The translations under genes were made by a program, and so were the position numbers. A DNA stretch of 64,000 nucleotides from Veillonella magna DSM 19857 (GTDB lineage Bacteria; Bacillota; Negativicutes; Veillonellales; Veillonellaceae), in assembly GCF_000428745.1 (NCBI RefSeq), contig NZ_AUAN01000003.1:62001-126000 (forward strand), written 5' to 3'. Below the pieces are notes generated by a model. That model saw nothing but the letters and a program-made list of their open reading frames with translations. It searched no databases and was not told the origin of the DNA. Positions within the stretch are counted from its first letter, which is position 1; each line of letters opens with the position of its first letter. Of the stretch, positions 2 to 48,895 are shown in pieces.

Positions 2-1015
<1,014 letters not shown>

Positions 1016-1189: not shown

Positions 1190-1260
1190 AGACCTACTAC
1201 GACAGCTACTTGAAGCCTGGTCTTGCGAAAGGCATTCTGCATAGCTATCGTAGTAGGTCT
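1190..1260 (+). repeat. 71-nt long stem-loop, copy A (terminator-like element)
   Basis: The arms 1190-1207 and 1243-1260 pair over 18 positions with one mismatch. The 35-nt interior forms a second small stem (GCCT/AGGC) capped by GGTCTTGCGAA. A second element at 27855-27925 has exactly the same length and carries GGTTTTGCGAA at the same offset, although its outer stem sequence is different. The T-run after copy A is poor. It could be a specialised terminator, a processed RNA or a dispersed repeat. Confidence 0.6.
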
Positions 1261-27423: not shown

Positions 27424-27438
27424 GGAGCGAATTTGGTA

Positions 27439-27843
27439 ATGAAGCAAAAGAAACAACGCAAGCAAGCTATACCGGTAGTAAAGGATACAGTAGGTGTAGC
27501 GGTGCGCGTCGTATTACAAATTTTGTATGTCGTTTTGGCGTACCTGTTTTATATGGACTATGGGGTGACTCTATTGGCCGGATTGGCACTGTTGGCGGTG
27601 ATCATCGGCGGGGGCTATTGGGTACTGCGGAAACAGGCATTGGCGACTAATCGCCATATGGCTGATACATGTCGTTTTATTGTAGCGTATGTAACAACCC
27701 TGCTGGCGGTGTTCTTTTATTCATTGGCCATGTATCGCTCTGATCAGTTGAATGATATTTCAAAAGCGATTATTATAGTCGCATCGTTGTTCGTATTTTA
27801 TTGTATTCGGACAGCGACTAAAGGAATGTTTATAAAAAAATAA
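27439..27843 (+). CDS. Small membrane protein of unknown function
   Basis: I do not recognise this protein of about 134 residues. After a basic N-terminus (KQKKQRKQ) come two closely spaced helices (about residues 22-40 and 44-62), a loop with NRHMADTCRF, and two more helices in the second half, ending in a basic tail. It could be a membrane-embedded partner of the TSUP permease upstream, since the gap is only 15 bases and AAGGAG precedes ATG 27439. Nothing else suggests a role. A long stem-loop (27855-27925) ends the unit. Confidence 0.65.
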   Translation: MKQKKQRKQAIPVVKDTVGVAVRVVLQILYVVLAYLFYMDYGVTLLAGLALLAVIIGGGYWVLRKQALATNRHMADTCRFIVAYVTTLLAVFFYSLAMYRSDQLNDISKAIIIVASLFVFYCIRTATKGMFIKK

Positions 27844-27854
27844 TTTAACATAGT

Positions 27855-27925
27855 AAATAGGCTATCATCACTTTTGGGGAGCCGGTTTTGCGAAGGCACC
27901 CTTAAATAGTGATGATAGCCTATTT
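27855..27925 (+). repeat. 71-nt long stem-loop, copy B (terminator-like element)
   Basis: The outer arms 27855-27871 and 27909-27925 pair perfectly over 17 bp. The 37-nt interior holds a short GCC/GGC stem capped by GGTTTTGCGAA. Length and the position of the cap match copy A at 1190-1260 exactly, while the outer stem sequence is unrelated. It ends in TATTTTTC, so it can terminate transcription from the + strand, and its A-rich left end could serve the - strand gene from 29123. Confidence 0.75.
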
Positions 27926-28019: not shown

Positions 28020-29123
28020 TTACAAAATGCGTTCCGGTGCACGACTGGAGAGAATTTTATAGGCTAAAGGGGAGACCTTTAAAATTTCACAATCCTCCGG
28101 CGCAAGCTTAGTGCGAATGGCTGCATCGTGGTTGTTTAATAATTTAGCAGCCCAGTTTGGATCGATTAAGGCAGAGCCGCCTACGGCCGCCATATCAGAG
28201 TTCGTTAAGGCTTCTTCCACATCGCTGCGAGTTTGAATGTTACCAACGGAAATAATCGGTAAGCGACCGTTCACGGTTTCGTTGATGTAGGCAAGGATGG
28301 ATTTATCCGTATACCCCTGTTCGGTAGCTACACTGCCAATATGACTTTGGGAAATGTGCAGATAATCCAACTGCAAGGAAGCAAGTTTATCTACCAGATA
28401 TAAGGTGTCCTTCAGTGTAATCCCCGGTGTCCATTGTTCGCGCGGCGATAAACGATAGCCAACAATAAAATCCTTACGACCGGCTTCGCGGGCAGCACAG
28501 AGTACAGCTTCTACTACGGCCAAGGGGAACGCAGCACGTTTTTCTAAGGAGCCGCCCCAACGATCGGTACGCGTATTGGAATGGGGAGAGAAGAATTGAT
28601 GAATTAAATAGTTGTTTGCACCATGAATTTCTACACCGTCAAAGCCGGCTTTGATGGCACGGATTGTGGCGGCCTTAAAGTTTTTAATTACATCCGTAAT
28701 TTCTTCTTCGGTTAGCGGACGAGGCGTGCGATACCCTTTGAGAGGGGCAGCTACATCACCGGCCGATACGAGATCATGACCGAAGATAGCATCAGCCTCT
28801 GCCATACGACCGGCATGGAAAATTTGCATAATAGCTTTAGTGCCGTTCCGTTTCATAGCGGCAGCCATTTTTGATAAGCCGGGAATGAATGAGTCGTCGT
28901 AAATTGCTTCTTCACCGAGCCAACCGCGACCGTTAGGTTGAATGTAGGAGCATCCGGCAATGTACATACCGACAGCACCGGTGCGGGATGCATAGTAGTC
29001 AACTTCTTGCGGTGTTACATAACCGTTAGCATCGCTTAGACATACGGTGAGCGGTGCTATAACCAAACGGTTTTTAAGCGTAGCCCCATTGGGTAACGTT
29101 ACAGTATCTGTTAATGTATGCAT
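28020..29123 (-). CDS. NADH:flavin oxidoreductase, old-yellow-enzyme family
   Basis: A 367-residue FMN-binding TIM-barrel enzyme of the OYE family, expected to reduce activated C=C bonds. Seen: NRLVIAPLTVCLSDANG near the start, GVEIHGANNYLIHQFFSP with the substrate-binding His/Asn, then RTDRWGGSLE, and the FMN phosphate site IISVGNI...GSALIDP. It lacks the C-terminal FeS/NADH domains of 2,4-dienoyl-CoA reductases. ATG 29123 is chosen because GAGGTG precedes it on the reverse strand; the open frame reaches 29195 without an RBS. Physiological substrate unknown. Confidence 0.9.
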   Translation of the reverse strand: MHTLTDTVTLPNGATLKNRLVIAPLTVCLSDANGYVTPQEVDYYASRTGAVGMYIAGCSYIQPNGRGWLGEEAIYDDSFIPGLSKMAAAMKRNGTKAIMQIFHAGRMAEADAIFGHDLVSAGDVAAPLKGYRTPRPLTEEEITDVIKNFKAATIRAIKAGFDGVEIHGANNYLIHQFFSPHSNTRTDRWGGSLEKRAAFPLAVVEAVLCAAREAGRKDFIVGYRLSPREQWTPGITLKDTLYLVDKLASLQLDYLHISQSHIGSVATEQGYTDKSILAYINETVNGRLPIISVGNIQTRSDVEEALTNSDMAAVGGSALIDPNWAAKLLNNHDAAIRTKLAPEDCEILKVSPLAYKILSSRAPERIL

Positions 29124-29275
29124 AGTATCACCTCGTAATTTAGGTAGGAAAAAATTATTTGAAATGTATACTGTCAAAATGAAAGCAATATGCATTGCTA
29201 TGGGGAATTACTGGAATCTGATAGCATACATATAAATTGTTTACAATGATATTCTAACATGGATGAAAGCATAAG

Positions 29276-31087: not shown

Positions 31088-32071
31088 ATGACTTATGATA
31101 AAAAAGTAATTATTATCGGTACCGGCGGAACGATTGCCGGCCGTAGCGGAGCGGCTGAGGATTTGACGGGGTATCATGCCGGCGAATTGTCGGTGGAGTC
31201 CTTGTTGTCATCAGTGCCGGGCTTGATGCAGTACGGACCGTTCGAGTGTGAACAGTTTTCCAATATAGATAGCTCGGACGTTACGGTAGAACATTGGGTG
31301 CGACTGGCGGCAACGGTGCAGCGTTATGTCGATGATGATACGGTGGCAGGTATTGTGATTACACATGGTACGGACAGTATGGAGGAAACAGCATATTTTC
31401 TTCATTTGACGGTGGACACGGATAAACCTGTGGTACTGACGGGATCCATGCGACCGGCTACGGCCATCAGTGCCGATGGGCCGCTGAATTTATTGATGGC
31501 AGTACAAACGGTACGGTCCGAGGCTTCCCGGGGAAAGGGAATTATCGTAGCATTAAACGGATACCTGGATTGTGCTCGCGAAGTGGCAAAGCTGCACACT
31601 ACGGATGTGGCTACCTTCGGCAACGATTATTTTGGGCATATGGGACTGGTACAGGATGGCATTCCTTTTTACTACTATGAGCCGCTGCGTCGACACACGA
31701 AATATAGCGAGTTTGCACGCCTGGGCGAACAGACATTGCCGCAGGTTGAAATTCTGTATTTGTATGGCGGCATTAAAGAGAATTTTGTAGCAGCGGCTCT
31801 TAGCCAGCGTTTAGACGGCTTAGTAGTGGCCGGTCTTGGCCACGGGATTATACCGCAGCGCATACAATCGCAGTTATCATCGCTTACTATTCCGATTGTG
31901 CGTGCATCCAAAACAGGGCATGGCATGGTATCGCCTATGAAAAACGATAGCCTACACGGTATGGTGGCAGCAGATACATTGACGCCGGTGAAGGCGCGTA
32001 TTCTCCTCATGTTGGGACTTACGAAAACGCGACATGTCGATGAATTGCAATCTATGTTTGGTACGTATTAA
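31088..32071 (+). CDS. L-asparaginase
   Basis: A 327-residue asparaginase releasing ammonia from asparagine. First active-site Thr is in IIGTGGTIAGRSG; the second Thr and Asp are in VITHGTDSMEETAYFL; the catalytic Lys region follows after VVLTGSMRPATAISADG. No signal peptide is present, so it is cytoplasmic, although the sequence style is that of the common bacterial asparaginase family. GGGAGAGGG precedes the ATG. A TATAAT lies at 30983-30988. With pepD next door it fits amino-acid and peptide catabolism. Confidence 0.93.
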   Translation: MTYDKKVIIIGTGGTIAGRSGAAEDLTGYHAGELSVESLLSSVPGLMQYGPFECEQFSNIDSSDVTVEHWVRLAATVQRYVDDDTVAGIVITHGTDSMEETAYFLHLTVDTDKPVVLTGSMRPATAISADGPLNLLMAVQTVRSEASRGKGIIVALNGYLDCAREVAKLHTTDVATFGNDYFGHMGLVQDGIPFYYYEPLRRHTKYSEFARLGEQTLPQVEILYLYGGIKENFVAAALSQRLDGLVVAGLGHGIIPQRIQSQLSSLTIPIVRASKTGHGMVSPMKNDSLHGMVAADTLTPVKARILLMLGLTKTRHVDELQSMFGTY

Positions 32072-32154: not shown

Positions 32155-32874
32155 CTATTTTAAATTTTCCACGCAACGAGCCAAGGCAAGGCGGACGGCT
32201 TTGGCTAATGTATCTCCGAAAAGGGAGAAGGTGCCGGCATCGGTAAGAATTTCACCGCCGGTATCAATGGTGAGTATTACGCCGTCCGTAGCGGTACCCG
32301 TAGCTATGTTGTGAGTGACTACGCTCGTTTTACCGGCATCGGCTACGGCGGCTGCTTTAGCTTCCGTTACCGTGATGAGCGCGCGTACCATGGCACCATC
32401 GGTTAAAGCTTTGTTGGTAAAAATCAGCAAATTGATAGTACCCGGACTATGAAAGGAACCATCGGCTTCTTCGTAAAGATAGCCGTCGCCGGCGCGATGA
32501 GCGGTAGCTTCAAAGCCGGCAGTAGCAATTACTTCTACAATAACCGAGCCTTGCTCCACTTTGGCATACGCATGTTTTTCCATAGAAGCACTTGTTAAGA
32601 GACCGGAACAGAAATTGACGGGCAAGTCGACTTGCTCAAATTCTGCGGCTAAGTAGTTAGCCGCAGAGCCACCGGGTAATTCCTTTTCTGTTTCTACAAA
32701 GAAGGCCAATTGCTGATTGCGTACGGCCATGACGTGGTGCAGGCCACCGTGTAAAGGACCGGTACAGATAGCGTAGTGAATCGTATCAAAGTCTACCGTA
32801 ATAGAATTTATTGTGGTTGTTACACGACCTCCGGTGATAAGCTCGGCAGGAGCCGTGTAGGGATTTGTTTGCAT
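32155..32874 (-). CDS. cbiZ: Adenosylcobinamide amidohydrolase (CbiZ)
   Basis: A 239-residue protein matching CbiZ, which cuts the aminopropanol side chain from adenosylcobinamide or pseudo-B12 to give adenosylcobyric acid for rebuilding. Key family stretches: GLLTSASMEKHAYAK, the GTINLLIFTNKAL segment, TVTEAKAAAVADA and NIATGTATDGVIL. GAGGT precedes the ATG on the reverse strand. No cobalamin synthesis or BtuFCD uptake gene is in the window, so it stands alone as a cobamide remodelling gene. Convergent with the asparaginase gene and divergent from mscS. Confidence 0.88.
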   Translation of the reverse strand: MQTNPYTAPAELITGGRVTTTINSITVDFDTIHYAICTGPLHGGLHHVMAVRNQQLAFFVETEKELPGGSAANYLAAEFEQVDLPVNFCSGLLTSASMEKHAYAKVEQGSVIVEVIATAGFEATAHRAGDGYLYEEADGSFHSPGTINLLIFTNKALTDGAMVRALITVTEAKAAAVADAGKTSVVTHNIATGTATDGVILTIDTGGEILTDAGTFSLFGDTLAKAVRLALARCVENLK

Positions 32875-48625: not shown

Positions 48626-48714
48626 ATACCGTATAGCAGTGCGCCCCTGGGGGCAGGCTATTAGATCTGTCGAAGCAAATGATGAGGAGGTAACGGAATT
48701 CGTAACAGCGAATA

Positions 48715-48857
48715 GCGCAAGTACTGAACGGAGACAGACGATTTCAGTAGACGAGGTAGAGGAGTATCGAAGTGTCAGCGGATGCCTCTCGGCCCGACAG
48801 GGTCGTCAGCGAAACAGCAAAGACCGATGGTGACATCGGAGACAAAGGGTTTCGCAG
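48715..48857 (+). ncRNA. glmS glucosamine-6-phosphate-activated ribozyme
   Basis: The self-cleaving riboswitch that lowers glmS mRNA when GlcN6P is plentiful. The cleavage site is expected between A48714 and G48715 in TAGCGCAAG. P1 is TACTGAA (48722-48728) with TTCAGTA (48743-48749). The core matches the known consensus: GACGAGG (from 48750), TATCGAA (48765-48771), GCGGATGCCTC (48778-48788) with the CGG that follows. P4 is CCGAT-GGTGAC-ATCGG, followed by GACAAAGG. The order and loops match the B. subtilis ribozyme well. The distal P3 part is less conserved. Confidence 0.93.
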
Positions 48858-48895
48858 AAAAAAGTACATACGCAATAACAAGGAGGAATAACACC

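Follow-up and report, generated by a model that had tools for sequence, protein, structure and literature searches.

A dispersed family of palindromes with an almost fixed tip, often at gene ends, in Veillonella magna

Two 71-nt hairpins in the genome of Veillonella magna carry the same tip on arms of unrelated sequence, which raises the question of what they are and why the tip alone is kept. The initial annotation of the 64,000-nt window in which they lie (the whole stretch of DNA analysed) found them to look like an RNA motif with a covarying stem, not like chance terminators, and offered a terminator family with a protein-binding loop, a processed RNA or a mobile palindrome as possible readings.

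Capped hairpins in the window and across the genome

Both hairpins lie exactly where they had been placed (Table 1). Their outer stems are unrelated (18 pairs and one mismatch in palindrome 1, 20 pairs and one mismatch in palindrome 2), and at the same offset both carry GGTYTTGCGAA enclosed by GCC(T)/(A)GGC, as seen in GGTCTTGCGAA and GGTTTTGCGAA. The 81-nt stretches around them fold with z-scores of −5.8 to −10.1 on both strands, and none of 200 shuffles folded as well. Palindrome 1 begins 174 nt past the end of ilvC; palindrome 2 lies between convergent genes and starts 11 nt past the end of the ORF before it. The statement that the window holds no third copy has to be corrected, as a degenerate one follows on the minus strand, 7 nt past the end of the minus-strand ORF 32155-32874 and 12 nt past the plus-strand ORF 31088-32071.

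Table 1. Capped palindromes of the window and their neighbouring genes (window positions; R1 is the covariance model described in the text)
Feature	Position	Strand	Description
ilvC, ketol-acid reductoisomerase, upstream of palindrome 1	5..1015	+	Pfam KARI_N/KARI_C
Capped palindrome 1	1190..1260	+	71 nt; outer stem, inner stem GCCT/AGGC, cap; R1 E 9.3e-10 (window search)
Cap GGTCTTGCGAA of palindrome 1	1219..1229	+	5'GG/3'A internal loop, UC-UUGC-GA apical hairpin
136-aa ORF upstream of palindrome 2	27433..27843	+	Pfam: no match
Capped palindrome 2	27855..27925	+	71 nt; R1 E 6.2e-8 (window search)
Cap GGTTTTGCGAA of palindrome 2	27884..27894	+	Apical hairpin with U.G where palindrome 1 has C-G
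NADH:flavin oxidoreductase family gene, convergent with palindrome 2	28020..29195	−	Pfam Oxidored_FMN
Third, degenerate capped palindrome, cap AGTCTTATGAA	32084..32147	−	R1 E 3.8e-6 (window search)

A hairpin scan of the window returned six inverted repeats with stems of at least 12 pairs, among which palindromes 1 and 2 alone are long-looped (33 and 29 nt); the other four have loops of 3–4 nt. No Rfam family fits the elements: covariance models run on four element loci with E up to 1 gave only two hits, both below threshold; one was tsr25, which overlaps palindrome 2 on its opposite strand (22 of 63 bits, E 0.31). Across the whole window the glmS ribozyme alone reaches its gathering score (48703-48865, plus strand, 100.6 bits). 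GC skew is positive throughout positions 1-64000 (0.15–0.21 per 8 kb), which makes the plus strand the probable leading strand; even so, it is a minus-strand gene that the third palindrome follows.

Across the 2,203,313 bases of the genome, GGTYTTGCGAA occurs 32 times compared with 3 for its reversed control, and the relaxed word GGTCTDRCGAA 78 times compared with 2. From the genome stretches then examined, 43 full elements were listed. Eight copies of 65 nt, which include neither palindrome 1 nor palindrome 2, served to build a covariance model (R1). Their alignment (A3) has 97.6% of its cells paired and changes on both sides in 23 of 26 pairs; its covariation of 0.872, compared with 0.294 for shuffled alignments, was reached by none of 500 shuffles. 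Searching the genome with such a model was the check that the initial annotation had proposed, and it returned many further copies: at least 85 matches at E ≤ 0.01, a lower bound, as 150 of 288 first-look candidates were scored and palindrome 2 was missed there. The palindromes are thus a genome-wide dispersed family of ∼70 bp with about 85 copies, and the claim that they are not chance is borne out by both the word counts and the model matches.

A fixed tip, free arms and a counterpart in another genus

Read from the outside inwards, the element opens with an A tract. Its outer stem has 16–20 pairs, beyond which an imperfect palindrome continues at several loci, and is separated by a small asymmetric internal loop, commonly 5'-TH / 3'-TDC, from an inner stem of 7–8 pairs (with a single 3'-side bulge in one subtype). 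At the tip, the 5'GG / 3'A internal loop leads to the mini hairpin UC-[UNRC]-GA. The four pairs adjacent to the cap show compensatory variation: of 30 copies, 15 have GTCA/TGAC, 5 have GCCC/GGGC and ten other combinations occur once each. When all pairs of 50 copies were compared, similarity dropped outward from the cap, rising again only at the A and T tracts, and was at background ∼40 nt either side of it; beyond that distance no common flanks were found. A MITE with an autonomous partner would be expected to have a target-site duplication and a transposase sharing its ends. The tip is almost fixed and the stems are mostly locus-specific.

An RNA-selected stem tolerates G.U but not A.C pairs, so that an excess of G.T over A.C mismatches is expected on the gene strand. 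Such an excess is found in ordinary gene-end hairpins with short loops, with G.T:A.C counts of 29:4 in the V. magna stretches examined (28 hairpins), 35:8 in G008, the species of another genus of the same family considered below (35 hairpins), and 21:7 in congeners (21 hairpins). Over 14-bp stems, capped hairpins gave 15:17 in V. magna (71 hairpins) and 20:17 in G008 (63 hairpins), a contrast with ordinary hairpins that yields Fisher p values of 0.0005 and 0.015, respectively. Restricting the comparison to sites with one adjoining sense gene end only leaves few mismatches: 5:4 versus 29:4 in V. magna (p 0.05) and 13:7 versus 35:8 in G008 (p 0.21), or 18:11 when the restricted sets are pooled (p 0.019). 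Co-directional sites of both genomes gave 11:7 (p 0.046), or 15:11 when 18 bp were counted (p 0.012). The difference from ordinary hairpins is thus clear in V. magna but weaker in G008.

Watson-Crick purity in the restricted V. magna set was 407 of 420 for capped stems compared with 340 of 392 for ordinary ones. Because G.T and A.C mismatches are about equally frequent and capped stems are purer than those of ordinary terminators, the data point to an outer stem maintained as DNA, for example by arm-to-arm template switching, or used as a terminator on both strands. Homogenisation of inverted-repeat arms is described in yeast in excerpts of PMC8604942. Of the proposed RNA motif with a covarying stem, the conserved cap and the free, paired, covarying arms therefore hold, but the arms are unlike an RNA-selected stem, their mismatches being strand-symmetric.

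R1 found no match in six congeners, under filters stricter than those of the own-genome search by which low copy numbers could be missed, and one match in G008. With V. magna included, 2 of 60 genomes were positive, and a class-wide search again gave 2 of 380, namely V. magna and G008; this search used strict filters and 13 candidates per genome, V. magna included, so low copy numbers could be missed. In 200 kb of G008, a hairpin scan revealed elements built to the same plan and tipped with other caps: a TH/TAC-like internal loop lies between the outer and the inner stem, and the inner stem is topped by a GG (or GA, AG)/A loop and a U-A-closed apical hairpin. A covariance model of 11 G008 elements (R2; covariation 0.472 versus 0.242 shuffled, 80.5% of cells paired, weaker than in V. 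magna but above shuffles) matched 70 sites in G008 and none in the other 27 family genomes, V. magna included. The window search with R2 did give a weak match to palindrome 2 (E 0.011). In the other 26 family genomes the capped architecture was not found by the models.

The caps are species-specific, UC-UNRC-GA in V. magna and UAC-loop-GUA or UUACC-UUC-GGUAA in G008, with a common core of 5'GG/3'A plus U-A. Kinship of the two sets is suggested by the shared architecture, the single R1 hit in G008 and the weak R2 hit in the window; a combined model was dropped, its alignment (A5) having set the GG columns out of register. The initial annotation had made its reading depend on further copies and on a loop conserved at orthologous sites: copies abound in V. 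magna itself, whereas none of the congeners yielded the cap and that of G008 differs.

Congener gene pieces that match V. magna are mostly 68–77% identical in DNA, too diverged for a judgement of age. In the one congener case looked at (G004), ilvC is closely followed by an ordinary terminator hairpin with a short loop, and in both V. magna and G008 by a capped hairpin. The same flanking gene stands beside an element of both genomes in about 3 to 5 of 86 cases (ilvC, the gene facing C19:8090, C2:130333 and two looser ones), which we judged informally to be near chance; orthologous placement was accordingly set aside. The exact 19-base core was matched elsewhere once in a Gemmatimonadetes MAG, where an open frame flanked by divergent ORFs begins, and twice in viral contigs, inside phage open frames, in a search that may leave out records of the own or a very near genome. 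All three match the core of R1 only and were treated as chance.

Gene ends, cap direction and rearrangement at the tip

Neighbouring genes, defined as open frames of at least 100 aa by simple ORF rules, were assigned for 86 V. magna sites (85 R1 matches plus palindrome 2) and 70 G008 sites. Read in the sense of the cap, the flanking pattern was ++ at 33 and 38 sites, +− at 22 and 27, −− (both genes antisense to the cap) at 16 and 4, and −+ at one site each, with a neighbour missing at 14 V. magna sites. Within 70 nt, V. magna sites had a sense gene end only in 32 cases, an antisense one only in 5, both in 7 and none in 42 (n = 86); the G008 counts were 42, 5, 1 and 22 (n = 70). The excess of sense over antisense ends holds in both species (32:5, p 7e-6; 42:5, p 2e-8). 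A gene end of either sense lies within 150 nt at 57 of 86 V. magna and 58 of 70 G008 sites; the location is extragenic and mostly gene-downstream, as it is for REP/BIME repeats.

Among the sites usable in a test against the local majority gene direction (33 in V. magna, 38 in G008), the cap agrees with a gene running against that majority in 7 of 9 and 12 of 15 cases, so replication direction is unlikely to be the cause of cap orientation. At least four T in the 8 nt after the hairpin were found at 56 of 71 V. magna and 37 of 58 G008 hairpins, and an A tract before it about as often (57 of 71 and 34 of 58). With the two tracts so evenly matched, the need for termination would not by itself set which way the cap points, and this argues that the cap has a role in RNA. 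The layout of an intrinsic terminator (stable hairpin, T tract, position shortly after a gene) is seen in about half or more of the copies; full copies are predicted to act as intrinsic terminators of the preceding gene, and as bidirectional ones at converging genes.

The family also comes in pieces. Classified by a 26-nt similarity rule, whose design leaves out breaks lying deep in the other arm, 75 V. magna caps comprised 49 full elements, 8 left halves, 8 right halves, one matching both sides and 9 unclear cases. All 8 left halves track a known left arm to the cap and stop at most 5 nt after it; since four of them belong to a single recurring composite and three to a single array, they represent fewer than eight independent events. 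In the right halves, also 8, the left arm is lost 4–9 nt before the cap. Right halves were seen in tandem arrays behind a full element, with repeat lengths of ∼75–210 bp and a unit that spans about the cap through the right arm, T tract and spacer (nine loci viewed). At several loci a full element directly follows a left half. Whatever DNA was found at a tip was another capped palindrome or half, and no insertion sequence was seen there.

Among 79 V. magna copies, 8 of 10 neighbouring pairs stand tail to tail, seven with a gap of 25–28 nt and five of one doublet type; in G008 this arrangement is rare, at 2 of 12 pairs. Several of the doublets and halves trace back to a single event, and whole hairpins that differ at 5–10 of 71 positions sit behind different genes. 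A recurring composite, near C3 117.6 kb, C13 0.4 kb and C2 27.7 kb of the V. magna contigs, consists of a capped left half, a capped full element and a cap-less hairpin with stem AAAAGAGGGGCACTCA. Half elements are present in G008 too, by eye; at its loci L131 and L132, decayed right-half copies lie downstream of full capped hairpins.

We searched nine genomes for three enzyme families, none of which tracks the repeat. The Y1 transposase/RAYT family (PF01797) had no match in V. magna or G008, G002 alone being positive, while 5 of 14 control genomes were. Reverse transcriptases matched once each in V. magna and G002 but not in G008 and were rejected as the mobiliser; the V. magna protein (568 aa, PF00078; L236:1360-3063, equivalent to C1 near 186212) is one that, by eye, we take to be retron-like. 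PDDEXK_2 matched in V. magna and G007 and not in G008. A PD-(D/E)XK family gene has several broken relatives (C1:199869-200894, C1:329.6–330.7 kb, C1:544.9–545.9 kb and contig C28), and several doublets are found within or next to these; in them a tail-to-tail doublet takes up ∼175 bp in the place of ∼340 bp of the open copy. Because the family is unmatched in G008, these nucleases were rejected as drivers and look like targets instead.

Explanations and comparison with known systems

The capped family is real, is neither chance nor a generic terminator, and is a new variant among dispersed terminator palindromes. Of the readings offered initially, terminator family, protein-binding loop and mobile palindrome are each partly favoured; the copies often lie at gene ends with T tracts. 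On balance we lean towards a REP/BIME-like dispersed terminator palindrome, lacking the REP tag and a RAYT, whose species-specific tip would be read in the transcript by a factor acting in trans. Under this explanation, full copies would terminate transcription of the gene before them, in both directions at converging genes, and copies would spread and rearrange at the DNA level as REP/BIME repeats do. The extruded or single-stranded hairpin tip may be the point of breakage or insertion, and arm-to-arm template switching may keep the arms perfect. The cap would stay constant because the factor reads the 3' hairpin of the transcript; this would most likely be an RNA-binding protein, or else the mobilising enzyme itself.

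A bolder form of the same idea, which we put forward tentatively and hold to be possible but doubtful, makes the cap both the recognition site of the factor in the transcript's 3' hairpin and the break point of the DNA palindrome, with new copies and halves laid in at the tip. The elements would then form a self-propagating terminator system with species-specific cap "codes" on a common core and a mobilising or cap-binding enzyme not yet described.

Two simpler explanations each take up one side of the evidence. The palindromes could be RNA elements only, that is, terminators whose apical hairpin binds an RNA-binding protein and whose arms covary for pairing alone, with no need for mobility. 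Such elements would account for the orientation of the cap in the gene sense, the T tracts, the covariation and the similar internal loops in two genera, but over all copies the outer stem shows no G.U excess, unlike ordinary terminators (a contrast weaker in G008), similar whole hairpins stand behind different genes, arrays of half-hairpins are hard to read as RNA elements, and R1 found no match in the six congeners; we therefore consider this unlikely. Alternatively, a selfish miniature palindromic element might insert after genes, with termination as a by-product and the cap kept for its mobilising enzyme. Species-restricted amplification with species-specific caps, doublets and composites, breakpoints at the cap and DNA-type stems all fit such an element. 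That the cap tracks the adjoining gene, including most minority-strand genes, although both ends carry terminator-like tracts, speaks against it, as does the lack of a candidate enzyme among the three families searched, and we regard it, too, as improbable.

A DNA uptake signal co-opted into terminators, as in Neisseria and Pasteurellaceae, would also enrich a short conserved word in terminators, but it is very hard to reconcile with 78 copies where known signals generally have at least 1,000 (excerpts of PMC1852404), with a word in the loop instead of the stem, and with 66 of 75 copies being full or clear half elements. That two ordinary terminators, each resembling a strong terminator when taken alone, have loops alike by chance can be dismissed given the at least 85 model matches and control counts of 2–3.

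Together with the counterpart of different tip in one other family member, these findings suggest that the palindromes are repeats of a little-known kind, able to spread within a genome. What is conserved here is a structured tip on mostly free arms; the tip follows gene direction, the stem looks DNA-kept, and halves meet at the tip. If the preferred explanation is true, the family would offer a natural system for how terminators originate, spread and rearrange, and it predicts a cap-reading or cap-cutting factor in the two species. The symmetry of G.T and A.C mismatches, oriented by gene, is in addition a simple general test that distinguishes RNA-selected from DNA-maintained hairpins.

In open-licence PMC papers we found no recognisable description of the capped palindrome family. 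The best described bacterial palindromic repeats are REPs, in which the palindrome itself is conserved and carries an end tag; one class also has a RAYT transposase. According to excerpts of PMC3733652, the tag is GTAG or CGTC, unpaired at one end of the palindrome, and CGTC-tagged REPs are said to be without a dedicated transposase. In excerpts of that paper and of PMC3116915, REP, BIME and REPIN repeats come nearest to the capped family, as dispersed extragenic palindromes that are mostly gene-downstream, species-specific and possible terminators; inverted doublets are a partial likeness, seen in V. magna and rare in G008. They differ in length (20–40 bp, compared with ∼70 bp for capped elements) and from the capped plan of a conserved tip on mostly free arms. 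No GTAG or CGTC consensus appeared in the 8 positions either side of 71 V. magna and 58 G008 hairpins, which show only A- and T-rich tracts. With no such tag and Y1/RAYT unmatched in both genomes, the RAYT/REP reading was set aside; by analogy, the capped palindromes work like a REP family, which is less than being demonstrated to be one.

Uptake-signal terminators and LIMP palindromes are looser analogues. The uptake-signal terminators of Neisseria and Pasteurellaceae, as portrayed in the parts of PMC1852404 that concern them, likewise are gene-end terminators with a word conserved within the species, which they carry in the stem in far larger numbers, compared with ∼80 copies of a word in the tip here. 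LIMP palindromes of an algal mitochondrion share an invariant short loop and a link to rearrangements and transcript processing, but their stems are repeats of one pentanucleotide, in 19 copies and in an organelle (portions of PMC4524435). Finally, insertion sequences that target REPs offer a parallel in that palindromic repeats serve as insertion hot spots (as set out in part of PMC1525189), whereas the DNA seen at capped tips is another capped palindrome or half.
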